DNA from: an uncultured Psychroserpens sp. | Lineage (GTDB): Bacteria > Bacteroidota > Bacteroidia > Flavobacteriales > Flavobacteriaceae | Assembly (NCBI RefSeq): GCF_947500255.1 | Contig: NZ_CANMRL010000006.1 | Span: 124,001 to 188,000 of the forward strand | Reading direction: 5' to 3' | DNA: 64,000 bases | In this document: positions 37,842-50,887 of the stretch, piece after piece | Numbering within the stretch: the first letter of the stretch is position 1 | Layout of the letters: each line of letters begins with the position of its first letter | Notes under the pieces: generated by a model | Databases searched by the model: none | What the model was told of the DNA's origin: nothing | The model's input: only the letters and a program-made list of their open reading frames with translations | Translations under genes and position numbers: made by a program

Positions 37842-38651
37842 TCAATTAAAACTCCAATCTTTATAACTACTTGATGCTTCTAGCTTATTTTCAGTAGCAT
37901 CATCCAATTCAGGAAAGAAATCAATTCCGGTAAGCTCTTCTACTTCATCTACAGATACTACAAACTTATAAAGCGGTTCATTAGAGTTTTTATGAGGCAT
38001 CAAAAATGCAATAATCTTCGTATTCCCAGTATTATTATCGATTAGCACTTTGTAAAATTGGTTGGGTACACTCACTTCCTCTTCTCCTATCGTTTTCATA
38101 TTCCCATTTAAAACACCTCCAGTAACTACAAATACACCGTCATATTTACCTGCCCAATAACGTACTTTTTGCTCAAGCGTATTCCATATTCCTGAATTGA
38201 AACTATGCTCTTGCGGACTAATATTACTAGTTAGAAACGTCTCATCATGTGCTACCTTACTGTACTTTCTATCTCCTGCAGGACATAAATGTCCGCGATC
38301 GTAACCAGATTTCTTATAATTTCGCCAATGAGCTGCACCAGTTTTTACAGTCTTATCAATTTCAAAATAAGGGCGTTTAAAATTGGTATTAGATAAATGT
38401 GATTTTTTTAGTTCGTAAGCTACCCATTCGGCTTGTTCATGAGGTTCACTGTATGATAAAGAATAACCATCATGATGTACAATTTGTCCTGTGGTGCTTG
38501 TTGGTAAAAAGTATTCGTTGGTATCAGTTTTAACTGTTTGACCTTGCTTAATTATTTCGGCAGAGGCTTCTTCTTTTAAAAAGTGTTCGTAGCTATAAAT
38601 ACCAACAATTATTAAAACTGCTATAATTGAATAGACCTTTTTTTTATTCAT
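37842..38651 (-). CDS. Membrane-anchored DNA/RNA non-specific endonuclease
   Basis: The 269-residue product has an N-terminal hydrophobic segment (VYSIIAVLIIVGIYSY) and a beta-beta-alpha-metal nuclease domain of the NucA/Serratia type. The catalytic motif is SGYDRGHLCPAGDRK with general base H121, and the metal ligand Asn lies in FLTSNISPQEHSFNSGIWN. The enzyme cuts single- and double-stranded DNA and RNA and would act outside the cytoplasm, in nutrient or biofilm DNA degradation. It directly follows the TPR gene (one base apart), so it is the last gene of the sigma-factor operon. Confidence 0.88.
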   Translation of the reverse strand: MNKKKVYSIIAVLIIVGIYSYEHFLKEEASAEIIKQGQTVKTDTNEYFLPTSTTGQIVHHDGYSLSYSEPHEQAEWVAYELKKSHLSNTNFKRPYFEIDKTVKTGAAHWRNYKKSGYDRGHLCPAGDRKYSKVAHDETFLTSNISPQEHSFNSGIWNTLEQKVRYWAGKYDGVFVVTGGVLNGNMKTIGEEEVSVPNQFYKVLIDNNTGNTKIIAFLMPHKNSNEPLYKFVVSVDEVEELTGIDFFPELDDATENKLEASSSYKDWSFN

Positions 38652-39446
38652 TTACAACTCGTTTAGTAAGTCTTTGGCCTTAGTATGATTGTAGTAAAAA
38701 TTAGTCACAATAGTGTTTAATATCAACTTAGCCTCTTTTATATTGTCTTGTTTTAAATACAATAACGCTTTATACCAATGTCCCTTTGGAGCGTCAACTA
38801 AATCACTATTAATAAGTGCATCAAAAGTTTGTTTGGCTTGTTCATATTGTTTTAATTCAATCTGGGATAAGCCTTGATACATATATACTATTCCTTTATT
38901 GGAAGCAGTATCTATTTGCGATTGAAAGATAACTAACGCTTCTTTGTACTCTTTATTTTTAAATAGTTTTTCAGCTTCAGTTAATCTATCTTCTGTCGTA
39001 TTATTTCTAGTAACAAACGAAGGTAAATTAGAGTAATCTGAATAGTTAGTATACAATTCATCGTGACTTAAATTTGAACTTAAGACAAAAGGAATAGCTA
39101 GAAGTAGTAATAAAGACGCTGCAATTGCAATATAAGTATATGACTTCTTCAAACGTCTTACTGGAGAATTAGAAGCTTTCATTTTTTCAAAAAAAAATTT
39201 CGTTTGTTGCCCTTCTTCACTATTGAGATAATCCTCCATAGTTTTTAGATCTTCAGAATCTTTATTTTGAGCAAATAACCAGTTGACATCATCATAAACG
39301 ACCTCCATTTGTTTGGCAATGTCTAGATATTCTTGTAATTCAGAATTAGTCTCTAACTCTTTCTCAAAAACTTGCAATTCTTCTTTAGAAAGCTTGCCCT
39401 TAAGATAGTCTTCAATTTGCTGTATTTGATTCTCAGTTAGACTCAT
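38652..39446 (-). CDS. Membrane TPR protein, probable sigma-factor partner
   Basis: A 264-residue protein with three parts. The N-terminal cytoplasmic helical part has IQQIEDYLKGKLSKEELQVFEKEL, like the N-terminus of Bacteroidota anti-sigma-type proteins. One transmembrane helix lies near 104-122 (YIAIAASLLLLLAIPFVL). The external C-terminal half holds TPR units (AEKLFKNKEYKEALVIFQ, YMYQGLSQIELKQYEQAKQTF). Its ATG overlaps the sigma gene's stop (ATGA), so the two are translationally coupled. A role as membrane-bound regulator of that sigma factor is inferred from layout and position; no zinc-finger is present. Confidence 0.7.
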   Translation of the reverse strand: MSLTENQIQQIEDYLKGKLSKEELQVFEKELETNSELQEYLDIAKQMEVVYDDVNWLFAQNKDSEDLKTMEDYLNSEEGQQTKFFFEKMKASNSPVRRLKKSYTYIAIAASLLLLLAIPFVLSSNLSHDELYTNYSDYSNLPSFVTRNNTTEDRLTEAEKLFKNKEYKEALVIFQSQIDTASNKGIVYMYQGLSQIELKQYEQAKQTFDALINSDLVDAPKGHWYKALLYLKQDNIKEAKLILNTIVTNFYYNHTKAKDLLNEL

Positions 39447-40006
39447 ATTTCTTTTAGCTGTAGATACTTCATATCAGATTTAATTAATTCTACTAGCTTG
39501 GCTTTACATTTAAAAACCCTTTGCCTTACAACATTCTCAGAACTATATCCAAGTCGTTCAGCTATATCTTTATAAGACATTTTACTAAAAACTTGTTTTA
39601 ATACTAGCTGACAATTATCAGAGATCAATTTAAGCTTTTCTTGAAAAAATTCCCAACGCTCTTGTTCAAGAACACTTATGGCTAAGTCTCGTTCTTCAGT
39701 TATATGTTCAATAACCTGATCATTTGTTACCTCTCTTTTCTTTTTATTTAATTCTCTACGCCATAGGTTTTTACAAGACACAAATAAAAAAGCTTCAAAA
39801 GACGAATTTATAGAAAAGGGTCTGGTTTTTGCGCGAACCATGATTTGCATTAAAGCTTTTTGAAAAATGTCATCTGCGTCAGTACGTTGACCCTTATTGT
39901 TTGAAATAAAACTCAAGACTTGACGAAACGAATTTTTATAAATTTCTCTAACAATACGCTCATTATTATTAACGAGTCCATTTAAGAAATAATGAGGGTC
40001 TTTCAT
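39443..40006 (-). CDS. Sigma-70 family RNA polymerase sigma factor
   Basis: This 187-residue sigma factor has region 2 as YKNSFRQVLSFISNNKGQRTDADDIFQKALMQIM and SFEAFLFVSCKNLWRRELNKK. Region 4 is LISDNCQLVLKQVFSKMSYKDIAERLGYSSENVVRQRVFKCKAKL. It belongs to the ECF-like sigma factors of Bacteroidota that are paired with a membrane TPR protein and a CHAT-TPR protein; both partners are here, one downstream in the same operon, the other divergent at 40815. The gene diverges from a lipoprotein gene with 88 bases between the two starts. Its targets are not known. Confidence 0.88.
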   Translation of the reverse strand: MKDPHYFLNGLVNNNERIVREIYKNSFRQVLSFISNNKGQRTDADDIFQKALMQIMVRAKTRPFSINSSFEAFLFVSCKNLWRRELNKKKREVTNDQVIEHITEERDLAISVLEQERWEFFQEKLKLISDNCQLVLKQVFSKMSYKDIAERLGYSSENVVRQRVFKCKAKLVELIKSDMKYLQLKEI

Positions 40007-40094
40007 CTGTTTTTATTGTCGCCTGAATATTTTTATTTTTTAATGGGTAACAAATATATATATTTATGAACAGATGGGGAAAACAACAAATATT

Positions 40095-40748
40095 ATGAAA
40101 ACAAACACATTTAAATTACTCACCGTTTTAGCTTTAATGCTATCGATGAGTTGTTCTGTTGACCAACTTCAAACAGATTATGAAGAATCAGTTCTTGAAG
40201 AAAAGTTAAAGACAGAAACCTATTCAAAAAAATCTCAAAACGAAAACTCAAATCAAGAACGGACATCTGATCCAATTCCTTTGAACAACCCAAACTTGAT
40301 TGTATTAAATGAAATTCCTTTTGGCACTCACACCTATACAATGTATTTAGATATGACCTTGTTAGAGGCAAATTATGTAGGTAGTTTTATTGGTCCATTT
40401 AATATTCATTACAGAAATGAAATGATGAACAATTTTACAATTTTTTCAGTTGAATATGCGTCAAACCCAGATTGTGGAAATATTGAACGATGGGTAGTAG
40501 ATGTACATGAGTTTAATGCTTATATATCTAGTATAGGGCACCAAGACGGTGTTATACCAGGACACGACCATACAGGTAATTCTGAAGGAGGAAGTACTAG
40601 TAACTCAACTGGAGCTGGTGTCACTGATGTTAACGGTAAGAAAAAAGACCCTCCACCACCAGACCCAGATAATACAGTTATTGATCCAGATGATCCAGAC
40701 ATTAGTGTAGATTATGCTTATTGCTTTTCAACCGAAATTATAGATTAA
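40095..40748 (+). CDS. Lipoprotein with His-rich and Asp/Pro-rich tail
   Basis: The product is about 217 residues with signal MKTNTFKLLTVLALMLSMSC (lipobox SMSC). I start at ATG 40095; an in-frame ATG at 40074 would add seven residues in front of the signal. The middle has HTYTMYLDMTLLEANYVGSF and NPDCGNIERWVVDVHEF. The end is low-complexity: HQDGVIPGHDHTG, a GNSEGGSTSNSTG stretch, then KKKDPPPPDPDNTVIDPDDPD. Two cysteines besides the lipid-bearing one might pair. I do not recognise the family. It diverges from the sigma operon and precedes the CHAT-TPR gene, so it may belong to this regulatory region. Confidence 0.55.
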   Translation: MKTNTFKLLTVLALMLSMSCSVDQLQTDYEESVLEEKLKTETYSKKSQNENSNQERTSDPIPLNNPNLIVLNEIPFGTHTYTMYLDMTLLEANYVGSFIGPFNIHYRNEMMNNFTIFSVEYASNPDCGNIERWVVDVHEFNAYISSIGHQDGVIPGHDHTGNSEGGSTSNSTGAGVTDVNGKKKDPPPPDPDNTVIDPDDPDISVDYAYCFSTEIID

Positions 40749-40754
40749 AAATTC

Positions 40755-40780
40755 AAAGGGTAGTGTAAAAGCTACCCTTT
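40755..40780 (+). terminator. Intrinsic terminator after the lipoprotein gene
   Basis: AAAGGGTAG pairs with CTACCCTTT around an 8-base loop; a TTTTGCCTTTT tract follows. It separates the lipoprotein from the CHAT-TPR gene. Confidence 0.65.
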
Positions 40781-40814
40781 TGCCTTTTATTAACCTAATA
40801 ATTATTACCACAAA

Positions 40815-43553
40815 TTGAAAAACTCAATATTAATCGGATTATTTCTAATCTCATCCATTAGAATTTTTTCACAGGATATTTCGCAAACTTTTAAAGATAT
40901 CTCTTCAAGTAAAGTTGACAAACTTGAAAAAGAACAAAAGTTTGACTCTCTACTTAATGCTCATAAAAAAAATGAGAATTTAGACCTGTTATTTTTAGAA
41001 ACATACGAATTAGCAAAATGGTATCGAAAACAAGGTAATCTCCCAAAAGCTATTGAGCTCAATAAAAAGAATTTACATCAAATGGATTCTGTAAATTACG
41101 CTAAAGCTACATTATACAGAAGAAACTTATACAGTCTTGGGTTTTATGAAAGAAAAACATATGATTTAGAAAATGCTCTAAAAACATACAATAGACTACT
41201 TCAATATGAAACTCCAGATAAATATGCAATTCAAGGAGCATTTCAAATGGCTGAAATTTATTTTACAATAGGGCAATATCATAATTCTAAAGATCATTAC
41301 GAACTCAGTAAAACTATCGCTAAACGACTAAACTTTAATGATTATTACGTAAGAAGTGCTATAGGGATAGGTCAAGCATGTAAACGAATAAATACACCTA
41401 ATAGCTTAAAGTATGGTGTAGATGTATTATCCAGTGCAACAGAATTTGTAAATATTACCAATACAGACGAAGAATCTTCCAACGATGTAAGTAAAAAATA
41501 TATACATACATTATATAATCAATTAGGTAATATTTATATAGATAGGTTTGATTATGATTTTTCTAATGGAAAAATCAATTTAGATAAAGCTTTATCTATA
41601 GCAATGGAATTAGAAAATGATTATCTATTAGGAAAAACTTACAATGATATTGGTGTTCTATATTTAAAGTCTGAAAGTGAAGATGCTGAGTTTTATTTTA
41701 ATAAAGCTTTGAGTTATTATTTGGATACCGCCACTGAAGTTATGATTCATAGAAACCTTAGTATTCATTATCTATTTTTTGAAAATTATAGTAAAGCTCT
41801 GACAAATGCTCAAACAGCTATCTCTAAATTAGTTGACTTAGACACGTCTAACATTAAAGATCTTCCAACTAAACAAGATTTGTCAAATTCGAAAATGAAA
41901 TTTCAGTTGATTGCTGGACTTAGCGATAAGGCAAATGTTTGGTTAAAATTAGCTAAAAAAGAATCTAGTAAGACTGACTATCTAAAAGAAGCTTTAAAAA
42001 CTTTAGAGTTAGCACATTATTTGGTAGAACAAGCCAGGTTAGAAAGTCAAGAATATAAGTCAAAATTATTTTGGAGAAAAACGGCTACTGAAATTTATAT
42101 GTCTGCTGTAAAAGCTAGCTATTTATCAAAAGATTATGAAAGAGCCTTCTATTTTATTGAAAAAAATAAGTCCTTTTTATTATTAGAAGATGTAATGTTA
42201 AAGGTGTCGAGAAATAACTCTAATATTTCTAAAAAAATAATCAATCAAGAAATGGCTTTTAAAAATGAAATTGCTAAGCTAGAAGAGCTTTCAGTTTCTA
42301 AAAAAACAGATTCTGTTCAAAGTCTTTTACTATTAACTAAAAATGACTATAATGAGTTTATAAATTCTCTTGATTCGGAAACCAAATTTTATTTCAAAAC
42401 TCATAAAGCAGCCAATGTTATAAATTTAGAAGTATTCAAATCGGAATATATAGACGACAATAATGCATATCTAGAATACATTCTAGATGATGAAGAAGGT
42501 TATGGCTTACTAATATCGAAAACCGACACTAAACTATTCAAAATTGAAGATTTTGATGTATTAAAAGATTTAGCTGTTACGTATAGAAGTTTAATAGAAA
42601 CACCATTCGATAATCAAGAAGCCATTGATTCATTTAAAACGGTCTCACATACCATTTATTCCACATTATTCCCTAAGGAAATTCATCCATTTATAATTGA
42701 TAAAAAACTAACTATTGTTCCTGATTATTATTTACAAAATATTCCTTTTGAATCACTTCTTACCTCAACAGATAAAAACAGTTATCTTATATTTCAAAAT
42801 GAAATAAACTATGCGTATTCGCTCACATTTTTGAGTGAAAATGATAAAATTAACAGAGCAAACAAATACAACCTCACAGGTTTTGCTCCAGTTGAATTTA
42901 CATCTAACCTTTCAACTCTTTCCTATTCTGAGGAAGAATTAAAATCTATTGATCGCATAATTTCTTCTAAGCTATATCTTAGAAAAAATGCATTAAAAGA
43001 AACTTTTTTAAATAAAAATCATAATTCTAAAATCATACATATTGCCTCTCATGCTAATGCTAATGATAGTATCAGCCCATGGATTTCTTTTTATGACTCA
43101 AAAGTAGATTTAAATGATCTTTATCATTTAAATAATACTCCAGACTTAGTTGTATTAAGTGCTTGTAACACTTCTTTAGGTGAGTTATATAAAGGTGAAG
43201 GTGTTATGAGTTTATCTCGTGGTTTCTTTAATACAGGATCGCATAGCGTGCTACCAACACTTTGGGAGGTTAACGATAAGGCATCTACCCAATTGCTAAA
43301 TTCATTTTATGAAAACTTAAAAGAGGGTCAAAATAAATCTTTAGCACTTCATAATGCAAAATTGAAGTACCTAGAGAATAATTCTTTAAGTCAAGCTTCA
43401 CCATACTATTGGTCTTCGTTTATTCTAATTGGTGATGCTGGCGACATCGAATTTAATAATGGTTTAGATACTATGTACTATTTTATTTTTGCTATTATTT
43501 CATTGATAATCATCACTTTATTCTTCCGAAGAAAAAAAAGCACAACTAATTAG
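40815..43553 (+). CDS. CHAT-domain TPR protein, exported and membrane-anchored
   Basis: A 912-residue protein. Residues 1-20 are a signal (KNSILIGLFLISSIRIFSQ). About 30-450 hold TPR repeats (RKQGNLPKAIELNKKNL, FQMAEIYFTIGQYHNSKDHY). About 540-880 form a CHAT domain. A transmembrane helix (MYYFIFAIISLIIITLFF) and basic tail lie at the end. CHAT is a caspase-like protease domain; the dyad is present as H746 (HIASHAN) and C784 (LSACNTS). By topology the protease faces the periplasm. The start is TTG 40815; the first in-frame ATG would remove the signal. It diverges from a sigma factor with a TPR partner, a pairing known in Bacteroidota. Substrate unknown. Confidence 0.85.
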   Translation: MKNSILIGLFLISSIRIFSQDISQTFKDISSSKVDKLEKEQKFDSLLNAHKKNENLDLLFLETYELAKWYRKQGNLPKAIELNKKNLHQMDSVNYAKATLYRRNLYSLGFYERKTYDLENALKTYNRLLQYETPDKYAIQGAFQMAEIYFTIGQYHNSKDHYELSKTIAKRLNFNDYYVRSAIGIGQACKRINTPNSLKYGVDVLSSATEFVNITNTDEESSNDVSKKYIHTLYNQLGNIYIDRFDYDFSNGKINLDKALSIAMELENDYLLGKTYNDIGVLYLKSESEDAEFYFNKALSYYLDTATEVMIHRNLSIHYLFFENYSKALTNAQTAISKLVDLDTSNIKDLPTKQDLSNSKMKFQLIAGLSDKANVWLKLAKKESSKTDYLKEALKTLELAHYLVEQARLESQEYKSKLFWRKTATEIYMSAVKASYLSKDYERAFYFIEKNKSFLLLEDVMLKVSRNNSNISKKIINQEMAFKNEIAKLEELSVSKKTDSVQSLLLLTKNDYNEFINSLDSETKFYFKTHKAANVINLEVFKSEYIDDNNAYLEYILDDEEGYGLLISKTDTKLFKIEDFDVLKDLAVTYRSLIETPFDNQEAIDSFKTVSHTIYSTLFPKEIHPFIIDKKLTIVPDYYLQNIPFESLLTSTDKNSYLIFQNEINYAYSLTFLSENDKINRANKYNLTGFAPVEFTSNLSTLSYSEEELKSIDRIISSKLYLRKNALKETFLNKNHNSKIIHIASHANANDSISPWISFYDSKVDLNDLYHLNNTPDLVVLSACNTSLGELYKGEGVMSLSRGFFNTGSHSVLPTLWEVNDKASTQLLNSFYENLKEGQNKSLALHNAKLKYLENNSLSQASPYYWSSFILIGDAGDIEFNNGLDTMYYFIFAIISLIIITLFFRRKKSTTN

Positions 43554-43606
43554 GGTAACATATTAAATGTCTTTGGAACAGTAGGTAAATACAATACCTT
43601 ACTACT

Positions 43607-45217
43607 GTGAAAGACGCATTAAGTTACCAAGTACAACAATTACTAAAAGAGAATAATCTTAACATTGATTTCAATGAGTTGAATTTTCAAATTCAAAGTC
43701 ATCCAACGTATCCAAGCTTACATGCAATAACTGGAGTTTTAGATCATTTCAATATTGAAAACATAGCTTTAGATGTGCCTAAAACTATTGAAACATTAAA
43801 TCAATTACCAGATACGTTCTTAGCTCAAGTTGACATTGAACAGCAAAAACAATTTGTTGTCGTTACCAAATCAAAAAATAATTACCGCATTGTATTTGGT
43901 CCAAAAAATCAGAAAACGATGGATCAATATGATTTTTTAGATCAGTTTACAGGTATAGTATTAGCTGTTGATGAAAATGAATCTAATCGAAGTAATACCT
44001 CTAATTCAAAATCAGCTATTGTTAAAACTCTTTCTATTTGTACGTTTCTCCTTTTTGGCTTTATATTAATAAATTCAAATCTAGGATGGTTAAATTTAGT
44101 GTTTTTCCTTACCTCTGTTTTTGGTATCTACATAACGACGACCATTATAAAGCAAGAACAAGGTGAAAGTACAATGTTGGGTAACGCTTTTTGTTCTAAT
44201 CCTACCGAAAAAAAGAGCTGTGATGCTGTATTATCATCTAAAGGCGCAACGATTTTCAAAGGTTTCAAATTAACCGATTTGAGCTTTATCTTTTTTTCAG
44301 GATTGAGTTTAACAACTTTTCTCCTAGCAATAAGTAATAACACTATTTTTATTCCAAAACTCATTACTGTTGCCGCATTACCAATAACTATCTATTCTAT
44401 ATATTACCAATATGCAGTCATAAAAAAATGGTGCTTTCTTTGCTTATCTATCGTAGGATTAATGTGGTTTCAAGTTGGTCTTTCTCTTTTAGATTTCAAT
44501 CCAAATTATAAATTTACCAGTATTCTTATTTCTGCGCTTTCTTTTACAAGCATAGGAACTTTATGGTTTATAATTTCCGAAGCTCAAAAAGCAAATAAAA
44601 CACTCAATCAAACAAAATTAAAATACTTCAAGTTCAAAAGAAACTTTGAGTTATTTAGTAATCAACTTAACAAATCTAAAATTATTAATACTCATATAGA
44701 TAACACAAAAGAAATCGTCTACGGCAACAGAAATAGTCATTTTAATATTACTATAATTACCAATCCAATGTGTGGTCATTGTCGTACTGTTCATGACTTA
44801 GTAACTCAAATTTTAAATCGCTATTTAGATGCAATCACACTTACTATCAGATTTAATATCGATACAAAAAATGCAGATAGTCCTGCTGTTAAAGTGAGCA
44901 CTAGACTTTTAGAACTATATCAAACAGATGGGCCAGAAAATTGCTTAAATGCCATGAACGATATCTATGGAGATTATTCTGGTGAACAGTGGTTAAAAAA
45001 ATGGCAAAACTGTTTTCATCCAGAAAAATATTTAACTGTTTTGCAAAAAGAAGATTCTTGGTGCAGCAACAACAACATCAACTTTACACCAGAAATTCTA
45101 ATAAACGGACAATCTTATCCTAAAATTTATGATCGAAAAGACCTTATTTACTTTATAGATGATTTAGCAGAACAGTTTGAATCAGATAGCTACAACATTC
45201 CTTTCGTGAGACACTAA
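43607..45217 (+). CDS. VKOR-thioredoxin fusion with C39-like N-terminus
   Basis: A 536-residue protein with three parts. Residues 1-~130 resemble a C39 peptidase fold without catalytic cysteine (SHPTYPSLHAITGVLDHFNI). Residues ~145-320 form a VKOR membrane domain with loop cysteines C196 and C205 and the quinone-reducing C276-F-L-C279. Residues ~350-520 form a thioredoxin-like domain with C389-G-H-C392. Such fusions pass electrons from thiols to quinone, making disulfides in exported substrates. The start is GTG. The next genes encode a C39 exporter, an HlyD protein and a six-cysteine peptide, so the likely substrate is that peptide (inferred). The C39-like part may bind its leader. Confidence 0.85.
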   Translation: MKDALSYQVQQLLKENNLNIDFNELNFQIQSHPTYPSLHAITGVLDHFNIENIALDVPKTIETLNQLPDTFLAQVDIEQQKQFVVVTKSKNNYRIVFGPKNQKTMDQYDFLDQFTGIVLAVDENESNRSNTSNSKSAIVKTLSICTFLLFGFILINSNLGWLNLVFFLTSVFGIYITTTIIKQEQGESTMLGNAFCSNPTEKKSCDAVLSSKGATIFKGFKLTDLSFIFFSGLSLTTFLLAISNNTIFIPKLITVAALPITIYSIYYQYAVIKKWCFLCLSIVGLMWFQVGLSLLDFNPNYKFTSILISALSFTSIGTLWFIISEAQKANKTLNQTKLKYFKFKRNFELFSNQLNKSKIINTHIDNTKEIVYGNRNSHFNITIITNPMCGHCRTVHDLVTQILNRYLDAITLTIRFNIDTKNADSPAVKVSTRLLELYQTDGPENCLNAMNDIYGDYSGEQWLKKWQNCFHPEKYLTVLQKEDSWCSNNNINFTPEILINGQSYPKIYDRKDLIYFIDDLAEQFESDSYNIPFVRH

Positions 45218-45228
45218 AAACATAACAA

Positions 45229-45250
45229 CAAAGCCCTAAAAAGGGCTTTG
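45229..45250 (+). terminator. Hairpin after the VKOR gene, possible partial terminator
   Basis: CAAAGCCCT and AGGGCTTTG pair perfectly around loop AAAA. There is no T-tract beyond CTTTG, so it may only slow RNA polymerase or protect the 3' end. Confidence 0.5.
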
Positions 45251-45261
45251 AATGAACACTT

Positions 45262-45290
45262 TATTCTCTCGCGAAGAATAGACACAACAC
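45262..45290 (+). repeat. 29-bp repeated element, copy 1 (before the exporter gene)
   Basis: This element, starting TATTCTCTCGCGA, matches 27 of 29 bases with copy 2 at 48850-48878. It contains a small hairpin, ATTCT/AGAAT around TCGCGA. It ends 63 bases before the exporter start; copy 2 ends 50 bases before the precursor start. The similar placement suggests a shared control site. Confidence 0.7.
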
Positions 45291-45353
45291 ATGTAGCATC
45301 ATAAATATTCATCGCTAATATAGTCTTAAAAAGTTTAAATAAAATAATCATAA

Positions 45354-47543
45354 TTGAAAAGTCGATTTCCTACATATCAACAAACAGAAGCCAAAGATTG
45401 TGGTCCAACATGTATAAAAATTGTTGCCAAATATTATGGCAAAACAATTAACACACAAGAGCTAAGACGCATAAGCGAAACAACACGTCAAGGCAGTAGC
45501 TTGCTAGGTATAAGTGATGCAGCTGAATCAATTGGCTTTCGAACCCTAGGTATTAAACTAGCTTTTGTAAAACTCAAAGAGGCTCCTTTACCTTGTATTA
45601 TTCACTGGAATAAAATTCACTATGTTGTTCTTTATAAAATAAAGAATGACACTATATATATTTCTGACCCAGCTCACGGATTAATAACTTATACTACAAA
45701 AGAGTTCATTAAATATTGGATTGGAGAAAATGCAGATGAGCATACTGAAGAAGGTATTGCCTTGATGATAGATCCTACTCCAAAATTTTATCAATCTGAA
45801 TTTGATAACGATGAGAAATTTGGCTTCAGTTTTATCTTCAAATATTTATTAAAGTATAAAAAATTTGTAGTTCAATTAATTATTGGATTAATCGCTGGTA
45901 GTCTATTACAACTGGTATTGCCCTTTTTAACGCAAAGTATAGTCGATATAGGAATCCAAAATCAAGATCTTAACTTCATTTACCTCATTCTTTTTGCACA
46001 ATTAGCACTATTTCTTGGCAAAGCATCTCTAGAGATTATTAGAAGTTGGATTTTATTGCATTTGAGCACACGAATCAATATCTCACTCATATCAGATTTC
46101 TTTATCAAATTAATGAAGCTTCCTATTTCCTACTTTGATGTAAGAATGACCGGAGATTTATTACAACGTATCAATGACCATAAACGTATAGAACGCATCC
46201 TAACAACGTCATCGTTAACCATAATATTCTCTTTTTTTAATTTGATCATTTTTAGTTTTGTACTCGCCTACTATAGCCTACAAATATTTGGTGTATTTAT
46301 TCTTGGAAGTCTTCTATATATTGGTTGGGTCTTATTCTTTTTTAAAAAACGTAAAGAATTGGATTACAAGAGGTTTGCACAAGTGAGTAATGAGCAAAGC
46401 AAAGTGATAGAGCTCATTAGCGGGATGCAGGAAATTAAACTGCATAATGCAGAACGACGAATGCGTTGGAATTGGGAATATGTACAGGCCAAACTATTCA
46501 AAATTGCTTCAAAAAATTTGGCGCTAGAACAAACACAAAGTGTTGGTTCCAGTTTGATTAATGAGTTAAAAAATATGTTCATTACTATTCTATCTGCAAC
46601 CTTGGTTGTTGAAGGTGAGATCACCTTAGGAATGATGATGGCAATAAGTTACATGGTTGGCCAACTCAATGGACCAATTGTACAACTCATCAACTTTATG
46701 CGAGAAGTACAAGATGCTAAAATATCTATTGAGCGTTTGGGAGAAATCCATAATATGGAAGATGAAGAAAAACCAGAGGACAATAAATTAACGACAATAC
46801 CTAATCGGGTAGATTTACAACTTAACAATATTTCATTTAGATATACAGGGGGATTAGAACCCGTTATAAAAGATTTATCGGTAACAATCCCAGCTAATAA
46901 AACAACCGCTATTGTTGGTGCTAGTGGTAGTGGCAAAACCACCTTAATGAAATTACTACTCCGTTTTTATGAAATTGATAAAGGCGATATAACTCTTGGA
47001 AACTTTAACCTAAACAATATCTCTCAGCGCACTTGGAGAGCTAATTGTGGTGTAGTCATGCAAGAAGGTTACATATTCAATGATACGATCGCAAATAATA
47101 TAGCAGTGGGAGAAGACTATATTGATGTTGACCACTTAAAACATGCAATGGATGTTGCCAATATTTCTGATTATATAGACCAATTGCCTTTAAGTTATAA
47201 TACAAAAATTGGAAGCGAAGGTACTGGATTAAGTACAGGTCAAAAACAGCGATTACTTATTGCTAGAGCCGTATATAAAAACCCAAAATTTCTATTCTTT
47301 GATGAAGCAACTTCTGCATTAGATGCCAATAATGAAAAAGTAATTATGGGAAAATTAAATACTTTTTTCAAAGATAAAACAGCTGTTGTCATAGCACATC
47401 GCCTAAGCACAGTAAAAAATGCACATCAAATTGTAGTTCTAGATCAAGGTAAGATTGTTGAAATAGGAAATCATAACCAACTAATAAAAAATAGAGCTTA
47501 CTATTACAACTTGGTAAAAAATCAACTTGAATTAGGTAAATAG
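45354..47543 (+). CDS. Peptidase-containing ABC transporter (C39 type)
   Basis: A 729-residue PCAT exporter. Residues 1-~130 are a C39 peptidase with catalytic C16 in KDCGPTC, Gln upstream (Q10), His in KIHYVVLY and Asp in ISDPAHG. A six-helix ABC membrane domain spans ~160-440. The ATPase has Walker A GASGSGKTT, signature LSTGQKQR, Walker B FLFFDEATSALD and H-loop VIAHRLS. PCATs cut precursors after a double glycine and export the core. The likely substrate is the peptide at 48929, whose leader ends in GG. The start is TTG; no ATG lies before the catalytic cysteine. HlyD follows after 11 bases. Confidence 0.95.
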   Translation: MKSRFPTYQQTEAKDCGPTCIKIVAKYYGKTINTQELRRISETTRQGSSLLGISDAAESIGFRTLGIKLAFVKLKEAPLPCIIHWNKIHYVVLYKIKNDTIYISDPAHGLITYTTKEFIKYWIGENADEHTEEGIALMIDPTPKFYQSEFDNDEKFGFSFIFKYLLKYKKFVVQLIIGLIAGSLLQLVLPFLTQSIVDIGIQNQDLNFIYLILFAQLALFLGKASLEIIRSWILLHLSTRINISLISDFFIKLMKLPISYFDVRMTGDLLQRINDHKRIERILTTSSLTIIFSFFNLIIFSFVLAYYSLQIFGVFILGSLLYIGWVLFFFKKRKELDYKRFAQVSNEQSKVIELISGMQEIKLHNAERRMRWNWEYVQAKLFKIASKNLALEQTQSVGSSLINELKNMFITILSATLVVEGEITLGMMMAISYMVGQLNGPIVQLINFMREVQDAKISIERLGEIHNMEDEEKPEDNKLTTIPNRVDLQLNNISFRYTGGLEPVIKDLSVTIPANKTTAIVGASGSGKTTLMKLLLRFYEIDKGDITLGNFNLNNISQRTWRANCGVVMQEGYIFNDTIANNIAVGEDYIDVDHLKHAMDVANISDYIDQLPLSYNTKIGSEGTGLSTGQKQRLLIARAVYKNPKFLFFDEATSALDANNEKVIMGKLNTFFKDKTAVVIAHRLSTVKNAHQIVVLDQGKIVEIGNHNQLIKNRAYYYNLVKNQLELGK

Positions 47544-47554
47544 CATACTAAAAA

Positions 47555-48847
47555 ATGAAAGAGAACGAGAAATATATTGAACTCAGAAGTGAACATATTC
47601 AAGAACTCTTAGAAGGAGTTCCCAATTGGATGATTAGATATGGTAATTTGCTAATATTAGTATTCATTATAATGTTCTTAATGCTGTCATGGTTTATTAA
47701 ATACCCTGATATTATTGCATCTGAAGCACAAATAACAACAAAACTACCTCCTCAAAAAAAATATGCTCAAATCACAGGTAAAATAGACTCTATACTTATT
47801 AGTGATAATGAAACTTTAAAAGAAAACAATACAATAGCAGTTATTGAAAATACAGCAAACTTTGAGCATATACAACTACTTAAATCTGTTATTGACACTA
47901 TAAAACCCAATAACAAAAACTTCAAATATCCTATAGACGAATTACCCATTCTATTTTTAGGAGACATAGATTCTGAATATGCTTTATTTGAAAATAATTA
48001 CATTTTATATCAATTGAACCAAAAACTCAAACCTTTTGCAAATGAGCAAAATGGAAATCAATTTTCAAAAGGTCAATTATACACAAGATTAAGAACTCTT
48101 CAATCTCAAAAGCGTACAAACGAAACTGAGCTAGTGTATCAGAAAAAATATTTAGAACGACAACAACGTCTTTTTGAAAATGGAGTTATTTCTAGACAAA
48201 CTTTAGAGTCTGAAGAGTTAAAATATCTTCAAGCCGAACGTAATTTTGCTAATATGGATGCTTCCATATCTCAAATAAAAGAAGCCATTGCAAATGCCAA
48301 CACCAATGAAGTTAGTACGTCAATCAAAAAAACTAAAGAAGAAATAAGTCTACTTAAAAATGTAATTCAATCCTTTAATCAACTAAAAAGAGCACTTATA
48401 GATTGGGAAAAGACCTATACAATTACATCTGATATTAATGGAAAAGTAGCATTCTCTGAACTCTGGACAAAACATCAAACTGTTAATCAAGGCGAATTAT
48501 TATTTACAATTATTCCAGAGCAAAATTCATCCTATATAGCAAAACTAAAAACACCAGCGCAGAACTCTGGAAAAATAAAAATAGGACAGACGGTACAAAT
48601 TAAACTTGAAAATTATCCCGAAGCTGAGTATGGTGACATCAAAGGTCAAATAAAATCTATTTCACTTTTGGCTGACGAAGATGGCTTTTATTTAATTACT
48701 GTATCCCTGCCATCCAAACTCATCACATCTTATGATAAAGAGATTCCGTTTCGATATGAAATGCGCGGCTCAGCTAAAATCATTACTGAAGATTTAAGAT
48801 TGATTGAACGTTTTTTTTATCAATTAAAAAATGTATTCAACAATTAA
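47555..48847 (+). CDS. HlyD family membrane fusion protein
   Basis: The 430-residue adaptor has a short cytoplasmic start (LRSEHIQELLEGVPNWMIRYG), one transmembrane helix at about 31-50 and a periplasmic part. The biotinyl-lipoyl half-motifs are split by a long coiled coil (about 140-290; KKYLERQQRLFENGVISRQTLE). The C-terminal barrel has KTPAQNSGKIKIGQTVQIKLENYP. It bridges the ABC exporter to an outer-membrane channel. No TolC-type gene is nearby, so a shared channel elsewhere is likely. It is co-transcribed with the exporter, and its stop lies just before copy 2 of the 29-bp element. Confidence 0.92.
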   Translation: MKENEKYIELRSEHIQELLEGVPNWMIRYGNLLILVFIIMFLMLSWFIKYPDIIASEAQITTKLPPQKKYAQITGKIDSILISDNETLKENNTIAVIENTANFEHIQLLKSVIDTIKPNNKNFKYPIDELPILFLGDIDSEYALFENNYILYQLNQKLKPFANEQNGNQFSKGQLYTRLRTLQSQKRTNETELVYQKKYLERQQRLFENGVISRQTLESEELKYLQAERNFANMDASISQIKEAIANANTNEVSTSIKKTKEEISLLKNVIQSFNQLKRALIDWEKTYTITSDINGKVAFSELWTKHQTVNQGELLFTIIPEQNSSYIAKLKTPAQNSGKIKIGQTVQIKLENYPEAEYGDIKGQIKSISLLADEDGFYLITVSLPSKLITSYDKEIPFRYEMRGSAKIITEDLRLIERFFYQLKNVFNN

Positions 48848-48849
48848 AA

Positions 48850-48878
48850 TATTCTCTCGCGAGGAATAGACACAACCC
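48850..48878 (+). repeat. 29-bp repeated element, copy 2 (before the precursor gene)
   Basis: It differs from copy 1 only at two positions (A to G at position 14, A to C at 28). The first change turns a stem A-U into a G-U pair, so the small hairpin is kept. A second weak hairpin (GACA...TGTC) follows directly. Confidence 0.7.
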
Positions 48879-48928
48879 TTGGGTGTCTTTAAATGACCAA
48901 GGTTAATTTAATTTTAAATATTTTAATT

Positions 48929-49144
48929 ATGAAAAATTTATTAAATCTAGGAAAAGCTTTAAACAAAGCACAACAGAAAGCTATTTTTGGTGGTACACCA
49001 TTCACTCATGTTTGTGATAATGTAATGGGTGATCAATGCTGTCATTATGTTCAAACACATGTAACACCATGTCCTACTCCAGGTTCTGTACTTGATAGTG
49101 GATGTTGGGTAAAAGAAAAAGTTTGTACTGGTGGAGTTAATTAA
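48929..49144 (+). CDS. Double-glycine-leader precursor of a six-cysteine peptide
   Basis: A 71-residue precursor. Residues 1-22 are a leader of the bacteriocin type (NLGKALNKAQQKAIFGG) ending in G21-G22. The 49-residue core has six cysteines at core positions 7, 15, 16, 26, 37 and 44, enough for three disulfides, plus four histidines and a glycine-rich end (CTGGVN). I start at ATG 48929; an ATG 12 codons upstream (48893) would add a hydrophobic stretch unlike such leaders. It follows the C39 exporter and HlyD genes and shares an upstream element with the exporter. Function may be antibacterial, signalling or adhesive; none is shown. Confidence 0.82.
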   Translation: MKNLLNLGKALNKAQQKAIFGGTPFTHVCDNVMGDQCCHYVQTHVTPCPTPGSVLDSGCWVKEKVCTGGVN

Positions 49145-49165
49145 TTATCAGGAATAATTCTTTTG

Positions 49166-49200
49166 GTAAAGCTGCCTATTTAAGGCAGCTTTACTTTTTT
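49166..49200 (+). terminator. Strong intrinsic terminator after the precursor gene
   Basis: GTAAAGCTGCC and GGCAGCTTTAC pair over 11 bases around a 7-base loop, followed by six T. It closes the peptide-export cluster. Confidence 0.9.
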
Positions 49201-50887
49201 ATTTCATCACAAATTCTAAAGGTTTCCCTGTGGCCCCATTTGGGAAGCTAATTCCTAAAAGTGCCGATATTGTTGGAGCAATATCTGAAATTTCTGTTTT
49301 TTTCAAGGTTTGTCCTTGTCGTATCCCTTTTCCGAAGAATAATAAAGGCACATGCGTATCGTAGTTTAACCCACTACCATGAGTAGAGCCTGTTTTTCCA
49401 TAAGAAATAAAAGCAGCATCATTTACTAGGACAACATCACCTGATCGTTTTTGGTTAAATCCATTTTGAAGTAAAGATTCAATACCAGTAGTGAAATTGG
49501 TAGAACTCATCGTACTAGCTGTATAGGCTTTAGCAATATGATTATAGCTTATTTGTTCATTAACAATAGCTTGTTGCACATCATTTAAATCCAATCCCAT
49601 TTGTTTGATCTTAGCTCTATCTAAGAAGATTTGGTTGTTACTAATATCTTCCAAAATATCTTTTGTATCATAAGTCTCCATTAAAAATGTAGCAAATTTC
49701 TCTTTCCTGTCGTTGTTATTAACATAACCTGCGGGAATGCGAACAGAACTCAAATATGAAGGTACATCCACTGCACCATGATCGGCTGTTAAAAATACAG
49801 TGTATTCTCCTACTCCAACTTGAGCATCTAAGTAAGTAAATAAACGCTCTAGATCTTTATCTAATCTAATATAGGTATCTTCTATTTCTTTTGAATTCAC
49901 TCCGAAGTTATGACCTACGTAATCTGTACTTGAAAAACTAACAGCTAGAACATCTGTGATATCATCTTTTCCTAGTTGTTCACCTTCTATAGCTGCCATT
50001 GCAAAATCTGTGGTTAAACTATTACCATATGGTGTTGCTTTTAATAGATCGAATCCTTTATTTTGATCTTTCAGTTCTGCTAAATCATATGGAAATGTGG
50101 CTCTGTCTTTTCCTTTAAATCCGCCTTCAAATGTGTTATAATCACTTCCACTTTCGGTATAAGTTGAAATATCATATAGTGTATTCCACTCTTTAAAATA
50201 TGATTCTGCTACATCCGAAGTATTAAAATCGGTTACCCATTTTGGTAAAGTTTTCATATAAAATGTACTAGAGATCCAAGCACCTTCATCTTGCCCGTGA
50301 AACCAATAGGCCGCATTTGCAGTATGACCAGCTGGTAAAATAGCACCTCGGTCTTTTAAGGATATACCAATGGTCTTCCCTTGCATCTGACTAAATAATC
50401 TATTTTCATCAGCAAATGTTGTAGTCTGCATTCTGTATGGTGACATTTTACCAGCATTGTGTTTTGTACCAACAGATTCAACACTATCATCACCAGCACA
50501 GTATACCATTTTTTTCTCCTCTTTATCATACCAATAATTGGCAATAACACCATGATACTTAGGCGTTGTACCTGTGTAAACCGATGCATGACCAGGCCCT
50601 GTATATGTAGGCACATAATTAAAATGGTTATTCTTACAACTAAACCCTTCGTTGATCATACGCTTAAATCCGCCTTCACTAAATTTATTATAAAAGCGTG
50701 TTAGATAATCATAGCGCATTTGATCTACTACCAAGCCCACCACTAATTTTGGCTTAACATCATCATAACTATTGACGTTATTTTGAATTTCTCTTTTTTC
50801 TTTATAGGCAACTTCTGTTTGTTTTTGACCTGCACATGAGGCAGTAAAAACAAGAACAAGACCTAATAAAAAAATACGTTTTATCAT
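49199..50887 (-). CDS. pafA: PafA-type alkaline phosphatase, lipoprotein
   Basis: This 562-residue enzyme belongs to the alkaline phosphatase superfamily, PafA group. The lipoprotein signal ends in TASC (C18). Metal and nucleophile motifs are VVGLVVDQMRYDYL, YVPTYTGPGHASVYTG (nucleophile Thr, probably T96), the Asn in GVIANYWYD, the substrate-binding pair in SLKDRGAILPAGH and the C-terminal metal site in FLTADHGAVD. PafA frees phosphate from organic phosphates in the periplasm and in Bacteroidota stays active when phosphate is plentiful. It is a single-gene unit between the peptide cluster terminator and the divergent mlaE-like gene. Confidence 0.93.
   Translation of the reverse strand: MIKRIFLLGLVLVFTASCAGQKQTEVAYKEKREIQNNVNSYDDVKPKLVVGLVVDQMRYDYLTRFYNKFSEGGFKRMINEGFSCKNNHFNYVPTYTGPGHASVYTGTTPKYHGVIANYWYDKEEKKMVYCAGDDSVESVGTKHNAGKMSPYRMQTTTFADENRLFSQMQGKTIGISLKDRGAILPAGHTANAAYWFHGQDEGAWISSTFYMKTLPKWVTDFNTSDVAESYFKEWNTLYDISTYTESGSDYNTFEGGFKGKDRATFPYDLAELKDQNKGFDLLKATPYGNSLTTDFAMAAIEGEQLGKDDITDVLAVSFSSTDYVGHNFGVNSKEIEDTYIRLDKDLERLFTYLDAQVGVGEYTVFLTADHGAVDVPSYLSSVRIPAGYVNNNDRKEKFATFLMETYDTKDILEDISNNQIFLDRAKIKQMGLDLNDVQQAIVNEQISYNHIAKAYTASTMSSTNFTTGIESLLQNGFNQKRSGDVVLVNDAAFISYGKTGSTHGSGLNYDTHVPLLFFGKGIRQGQTLKKTEISDIAPTISALLGISFPNGATGKPLEFVMK

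Follow-up and report, generated by a model that had tools for sequence, protein, structure and literature searches.

Four genes and an RNA element at one Psychroserpens locus

The 64,000-nt window analyzed here, taken from the genome of an uncultured Psychroserpens sp. (GCF_947500255.1, contig NZ_CANMRL010000006.1), contains at positions 43607-49144, all on the forward strand, a candidate system for the maturation and export of a disulfide-rich peptide. Its first gene (43607..45217; 536 amino acids, GTG start) encodes a protein in which a C39-like domain, a VKOR domain and a DsbA-like thioredoxin domain are fused, and for which Pfam, a structure model, structural matches and conservation lead us to propose the role of a leader-guided disulfide oxidase. 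Downstream lie a C39-peptidase ATP-binding cassette (ABC) exporter of the PCAT type (45354..47543; 729 amino acids, TTG start), an HlyD-type periplasmic adaptor recognized by Pfam (47555..48847; 430 amino acids), a 5' RNA element (48848..48903; 71.7 bits) and a precursor gene (48929..49144). The precursor has a 22-residue double-glycine (GG) leader, MKNLLNLGKALNKAQQKAIFGG, and a 49-residue core with six cysteines. A sequence-only reading of this stretch had listed the same four genes, and Pfam together with the sequence bears it out. The exporter is a full C39-ABC protein with an active C39 domain (E = 9e-36) and ABC membrane and ATPase domains, as in other PCAT exporters; its C16, H89 and D105, together with Q10, are conserved at 99-100% across 94 aligned exporters. 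For the precursor, the ATG at 48929 is the most likely start, since an earlier candidate at 48893 falls inside the conserved RNA element and was rejected. Compared with about 5.8 billion proteins, the precursor matched itself and, at E <= 10, five relatives that have a near-identical leader (MKNLLNLGKALNKAEQK) and a partly common cysteine frame.

In sublancin (BdbB) and pediocin (PedC), an oxidoreductase gene adjoins a disulfide-containing bacteriocin and a C39 exporter; BdbB and PedC are stand-alone proteins without a leader-docking domain, and differ in this from the fusion described here. Judging from the accessible part of the source, the closest described system is that of the bacteroidetocins (Coyne et al. 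2019, PMC6671954), peptides of Bacteroidota with a GG leader and a C39-ABC exporter, two of which (A and B) have four cysteines. According to the same part of the paper, deletion of the neighboring thiol oxidoreductase attenuates toxin activity, and altered migration under non-reducing conditions suggests disulfides, which the authors say are likely formed by thiol oxidoreductases. On this evidence, both systems combine a GG-leader peptide, a C39-ABC exporter and an oxidoreductase alongside. The bacteroidetocin loci, however, have a separate thiol oxidoreductase and an uncharacterized protein with five transmembrane helices, neither of which is encoded at 43607-49144, where the fusion is found, and their leaders have 15-16 residues rather than 22. 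The term VKOR is absent from the main text of that paper, and no RNA element appears in the parts of it that were covered. In the open-access literature we searched, the fusion is nowhere described as a peptide maturase.

Association of the fusion with exporters and cysteine-rich precursors

We searched 299 genomes of the family for the fusion, the exporter and the RNA element, scoring three exporter candidates per genome, mostly four for the fusion and nineteen for the RNA, so that copies may be missed. The fusion was found in 40 genomes and an exporter of the window's kind (E <= 1e-90) in 76; the exporter occurs in 39 of the 40 genomes with the fusion versus 37 of the 259 others (p = 2e-26). 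We then compared 54 fusion loci (every listed fusion place, the window and L003) with 60 stretches around fusion-less exporters, among which eight low-identity exporter matches are not counted. The sequence-only reading had held that a fusion mostly remote from its partners would speak against it; instead, a precursor accompanies the fusion at 44 of the 54 loci and an exporter lies within the examined stretch at 34. The exact gene order of the window did not prove general, since the order varies among fusion loci: a GG precursor lies within 700 nt after 37 of 55 fusion genes, a count that excludes the window, where the precursor follows the HlyD gene. Relatives of the fusion protein number 571 at E <= 1e-30 (the best 120 are listed), with copies 97% identical in Psychroserpens luteolus and 30% identical in Aquimarina muelleri. 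Outside the family, an exporter is nearby at 15 of 20 fusion loci.

This pattern bears on the idea that the fusion lies near an exporter by chance and serves the envelope as a general disulfide oxidase. The fusion does contain the only VKOR found in the 4.0-Mb source genome, as would suit such an enzyme, but 259 of the 299 family genomes have no match to it, its link with the exporter, with cysteine-rich precursors and with the RNA element is tight, and a general oxidase would have no evident role for a C39-like domain. Given the patchy distribution and the tight association, we consider this idea very improbable.

Related exporters that lack the fusion keep different company. Among 35 loci with fusion-less exporters 50-73% identical to that of the window, LanB-type dehydratases are found at 13, LanC at six and grasp-with-spasm maturases at 11. 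Genes of these kinds (LanB/LanC or grasp-with-spasm) occur at 22 of the 35, versus 2 of the 34 loci at which exporter and fusion occur together (p = 5e-7; two loci, L105 and L125, overlap and contribute one grasp-with-spasm pair twice to the 22). Another two loci, L112 and L151, overlap as well. From the genus of the window, the draw contains two further genomes (G045 and G267); both have the exporter and no fusion, and their exporters adjoin grasp-with-spasm genes (L100 and L106). From these sequences, the exporter looks like a platform for GG peptides served by interchangeable maturases, of which the fusion would be the disulfide version.

Precursors were collected with a leader profile that is blind to the core; its seeds came from a regular-expression scan of fusion and fusion-less loci alike, most of them from fusion loci. 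Identical precursors were counted once. The fusion loci yielded 95 distinct precursors, of which 44 have six cysteines and 29 have four; the remainder have none (1), one (2), two (1), three (2), five (8), seven (2), eight (4), ten (1) or twelve (1). The count is even in 80 of the 92 precursors with at least two cysteines (p = 2e-13), and this parity holds at stricter leader cut-offs (70/81 and 62/73). Of the 60 fusion-less loci, 17 contained precursors, 29 altogether: 14 are cysteine-free, 21 have at most two cysteines and 8 have at least three. Thus at least three cysteines are present in 91/95 precursors near the fusion versus 8/29 at fusion-less exporter loci, a contrast less solid than the even-count result because control-set precursors with other leaders are missed. 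Outside the family, at a laxer cut-off (E <= 3), 14 of the 20 fusion loci contained precursors, 23 in all; one of these has seven cysteines and the other 22 have four, six or eight. The cysteine-free precursors that the sequence-only reading had named as adverse amount to only 1 in 95 near the fusion. Its further suggestion of an oxidase dedicated to one peptide fits the window and is not supported as a rule, as single fusions are accompanied by six precursors at L039 and eight at L044. As a separate observation, low-identity C39 exporters at L150 and L152 lie beside cysteine-free, Gly/Val-rich GG peptides (LLGGLDGV type) reminiscent of two-peptide bacteriocins.

The same counts can be set against the notion that the cysteines carry a thioether or metal link instead of disulfides, with the fusion acting as a redox guard. 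Related exporters do serve lanthipeptide-type loci, and 12 of the 92 precursors have odd cysteine counts; LanB/LanC or grasp-with-spasm genes, however, occur at just 2 of the 54 fusion loci (L043 and L062), and even counts predominate. We hold such a link to be highly unlikely.

A pseudoknot RNA element upstream of precursor genes

The RNA element ahead of the precursor gene is an H-type pseudoknot. Its helix P1 (48851-48867) is ATTCTCTCGCGAGGAAT, P2 (48868-48873/48883-48888) pairs AGACAC with GTGTCT, and CCTTGG in the P2 loop forms the pseudoknot with CCAAGG, located eight bases past P2 (48877-48882/48897-48902). The pseudoknot was tested on 43 elements that had been selected without it, by sequence and a downstream GG open reading frame: 229 of their 258 pseudoknot pairs form, whereas shuffling the partners (5000 times) gave 184 +/- 5 and never more than 204. 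In 41 of the 43, the distance from the end of the element to the ATG is 25-31 nt. In an alignment of 36 elements, whose rows were selected partly by P2 and pseudoknot pairing, all three helices have compensatory changes, with both-sided changes in 15 of 18 pairs and 92.4% of cells paired, a level reached by 0 of 500 shuffles and expected of a structured RNA. No family of Rfam 15 fits the element in six element-bearing loci, and in window positions 43300-49300 none reaches its gathering score or covers 48848-48903; a covarying pseudoknot RNA in front of precursors, absent from Rfam, thus appears to be new. An unconstrained search for pseudoknots ahead of the precursors separated real from shuffled sequences poorly (78/94 versus 115/282 exceeded the cut-off), and we place no weight on it. 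We rejected the interpretation of the element as a DNA operator only: although the repeat ATTCTCTCGCGARGAAT is dyad-like, a site bound by protein would have no need for the covariation seen in the pseudoknot downstream of it. P1 by itself could still serve as such a site as well.

The element follows the fusion closely within the family, being present in 30 of the 40 genomes with the fusion versus 6 of the 259 others (p = 8e-27). Of the 95 precursors, 56 are directly preceded by it, and these belong to 32 of the 44 loci. Fusion loci gave 68 matches (a count that covers L085 and L086, excludes the window and contains elements used for building the model) and fusion-less exporter stretches gave five, in three loci. 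The model found no copy in the 20 fusion loci outside the family, so the element belongs to the family rather than to all fusions. Copies far from any fusion also precede cysteine-rich GG precursors (L217, L225, L227 and L229). One genome (G059) has three fusion-exporter loci (L035, L036 and L037) and at least 19 RNA elements, several of them distant from fusions, which by sequence would amount to a large multi-peptide repertoire.

In the source genome the model matches two copies, both at this locus (150 of 2296 candidates were scored). The second (45260..45341; 31.1 bits, E = 2.6e-6 for the window and 1.6e-4 for the genome) lies ahead of the exporter and is degenerate, with a long insert in the P2 loop. 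At many other loci the interval from fusion to exporter holds a precursor, and this copy may be what is left of a precursor gene that was lost. Just past the VKOR gene, a hairpin read from the sequence (45230..45249; AAAGCCC/GGGCTTT), with no T run after it, is a possible transcript boundary. Because this hairpin and the degenerate copy separate the VKOR gene from that of the exporter, the unit may be transcribed as more than one RNA.

Predicted orientation of the fusion and proposed mechanism

Pfam divides the fusion into Peptidase_C39 (residues 10-125, E = 1e-7), VKOR (165-293, E = 5e-12) and Thioredoxin_4 (366-519, E = 5e-10). In a profile comparison, the N-terminal domain (residues 1-125; 43607..43981) aligns with the C39 domain of the exporter itself (hhalign probability 98.9), and in fold it resembles PCAT1, the LahT150-leader complex and the HlyB domain. 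It lacks the catalytic Cys, His and Asp and retains a conserved SHPxYPSL motif: across 74 fusions the catalytic residues are not conserved, with a DCG-like motif in none, no conservation at the aligned His site and Asp at its aligned site in 15. We therefore class it as a C39-like domain (CLD), that is, a C39 fold without catalysis, and not as a C39 peptidase. The absence of a catalytic cysteine claimed by the sequence-only reading holds for the window protein and for 69 of the 74 fusions; the other five (L072, L074, L077 and both of L080) start with MDNC, MIDNC or MNNC, and this cysteine, near the C39 catalytic position, is a possible vestige of the catalytic one. In HlyB the CLD is part of the exporter, whereas here it is part of the oxidase, and the HlyB substrate is described, in the part of the source available, as having no GG leader (PMC8277102). 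The available part of the LahT paper describes a hydrophobic groove that accommodates positions -4, -7 and -12 of the leader, and proposes that degenerate C39 domains recruit substrate. The leaders collected here have I/V at -4 in 86 of 88 and L/M/I at -12 in 87 of 88, and by analogy the C39-like domain may dock the leader.

The membrane part (44003..44674) is predicted to contain six helices (residues 133-156, 161-184, 222-242, 248-272, 277-295 and 303 to about 326, the last running on as a helix to 356), with loop cysteines 196/205 and a CxxC at 276/279, that is, the four redox cysteines of a VKOR core. The DsbA-like domain follows (residues ~357-527; 44675..45187), with CxxC 389/392 and Thr-Pro 494/495. 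All six cysteines of the VKOR and thioredoxin parts are invariant in 74/74 fusions. A sequence search of the PDB gave no relative at E <= 0.1. The classical VKOR-thioredoxin protein of Synechococcus (4nv2/4nv5) has five transmembrane helices and faces the periplasm; in comparison, the fusion has an extra first helix, the C39-like domain and inverted charges. This inversion, scored on loop segments picked by hand, is found in 74/74 fusions and argues against the periplasm-facing active site of the classical bacterial enzyme. Classical VKORs sampled from the phylum show periplasm-type charges (30 loci, of which four had no motif match and one, the fusion L166, was omitted; the 25 averaged wrongly contain a truncated fusion, L183, the same region as L198). 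The six predicted helices, one more than in classical VKOR-thioredoxin proteins, and the inverted charge pattern are new here, and together they suggest that the active sites are probably cytoplasmic, where the leader is. The VKOR of Aeropyrum pernix reportedly has, going by the title of Hibender et al. (2017), a topology that allows disulfide formation in two compartments. That enzyme is archaeal, and we know of no leader-docking domain or peptide cluster associated with it.

The order of events in the sequence-only reading, from leader binding to disulfide formation to export, would be unworkable with a periplasmic VKOR and becomes possible with the inverted topology. The opposing arrangement keeps the same dedicated system in the classical topology: VKOR cysteines, thioredoxin and C39-like domain would all be periplasmic, and oxidation would occur during or after translocation. 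The charges of the sampled classical VKORs favor it, as do the bacteroidetocin loci with their thiol oxidoreductase. DsbA-like domains, moreover, normally act in the envelope, outside the cytoplasm, and several DsbA-like structures matched by fold are described as periplasmic. It would, however, leave the charge inversion unaccounted for, and the N-terminal domain of about 130 residues, in which 71 of 73 fusions have no signal-like segment, would need to cross the membrane. The leader and the exporter's C39 domain are cytoplasmic, so that a periplasmic C39-like domain would find no leader. Type I conduits, as the available part of the source describes them, span both membranes continuously and would bypass the periplasm. 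We judge the classical arrangement unlikely, while giving it appreciable weight.

We think it likely that the unit is a Bacteroidota system for the maturation and export of disulfide peptides by docking, cytoplasmic oxidation and export. Sequence comparison supplies its groundwork: the gene association, the invariant redox cysteines, the even-cysteine precursors, the lost C39 catalytic residues and the RNA covariation. In the proposed mechanism, the precursor would be synthesized with its GG leader, which the degenerate C39-like domain of the fusion would dock at the cytoplasmic face of the inner membrane. There the fused DsbA-like domain would oxidize the core cysteines, electrons passing through the cysteine relay 389/392, 196/205 and 276/279 to the membrane quinone, quinones being the electron acceptors of the VKOR family. 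The C39 exporter would then take over the folded peptide, cleave it behind the GG and, together with the HlyD adaptor, export it, while the pseudoknot RNA would mark and presumably regulate the precursor gene. Leader docking, oxidation before export, the quinone acceptor and the RNA function are what we infer. That the fusion is a cytoplasmic, leader-guided and quinone-coupled disulfide maturase in the slot otherwise held by lanthipeptide or ATP-grasp enzymes, with a pseudoknot RNA class controlling many peptide genes, we rate as somewhat better than an even chance.

Several observations weigh against the cytoplasmic disulfide system, beyond the usual location of DsbA-like domains. The cytoplasm is reducing, and the oxidase would have to outrun cytoplasmic thiol systems; the model of the fusion has a predicted template modeling score (pTM) of 0.59, leaving its domain arrangement uncertain; two fusions (L062 and L192) have hydrophobic N-termini; and position -7 is Gln in 68 of 88 leaders versus Leu in that of LahT. 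An exporter is missing from the examined stretch at 20 of 54 fusion loci, some of which stop at contig ends, an identified precursor at 10 of 54, and an identified maturase at 13 of the 35 fusion-less related exporter loci. Besides the odd counts, the precursors with one or no cysteine are unable to form an internal disulfide, so that the cysteine rule is strong and not absolute. Stricter leader cut-offs weaken the contrast in precursors with at least three cysteines (80/83 versus 6/13 and 72/74 versus 4/7). Such a precursor is found at 6 of the 17 fusion-less loci with a precursor (L097, L101, L105, L107, L133 and L145); the genomes of L097, L101 and L107 (G195, G276 and G217) carry the fusion elsewhere, and in those of L105, L133 and L145 (G287, G238 and G038) the family search did not find it.

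Bacterial disulfide formation is usually taught as extracytoplasmic. If the proposed mechanism is true, an inward-turned bacterial VKOR with a docking domain would make disulfides a leader-directed intracellular peptide modification, powered by the respiratory quinone pool. It would predict many uncharacterized multi-disulfide peptides across Bacteroidota, for which the RNA element would be a genomic handle in Flavobacteriaceae, and would suggest a tool for producing disulfide peptides in the cytoplasm.

Among the remaining neighbors, a thioredoxin-like lipoprotein, possibly an accessory, has relatives at five fusion loci, as well as three at L101 (L101:355-5000, L085:10326-11891; the one in L085 matches PF13905). 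Just upstream of the unit in the window, a block at 37842-43553 encodes an endonuclease, a TPR protein, an ECF sigma factor, a small protein and a TPR-CHAT protein; of these, the endonuclease has relatives at 8 of the 54 fusion loci and the sigma factor and the CHAT protein at 7 each, versus 1 of the 60 fusion-less exporter stretches for each of the three.

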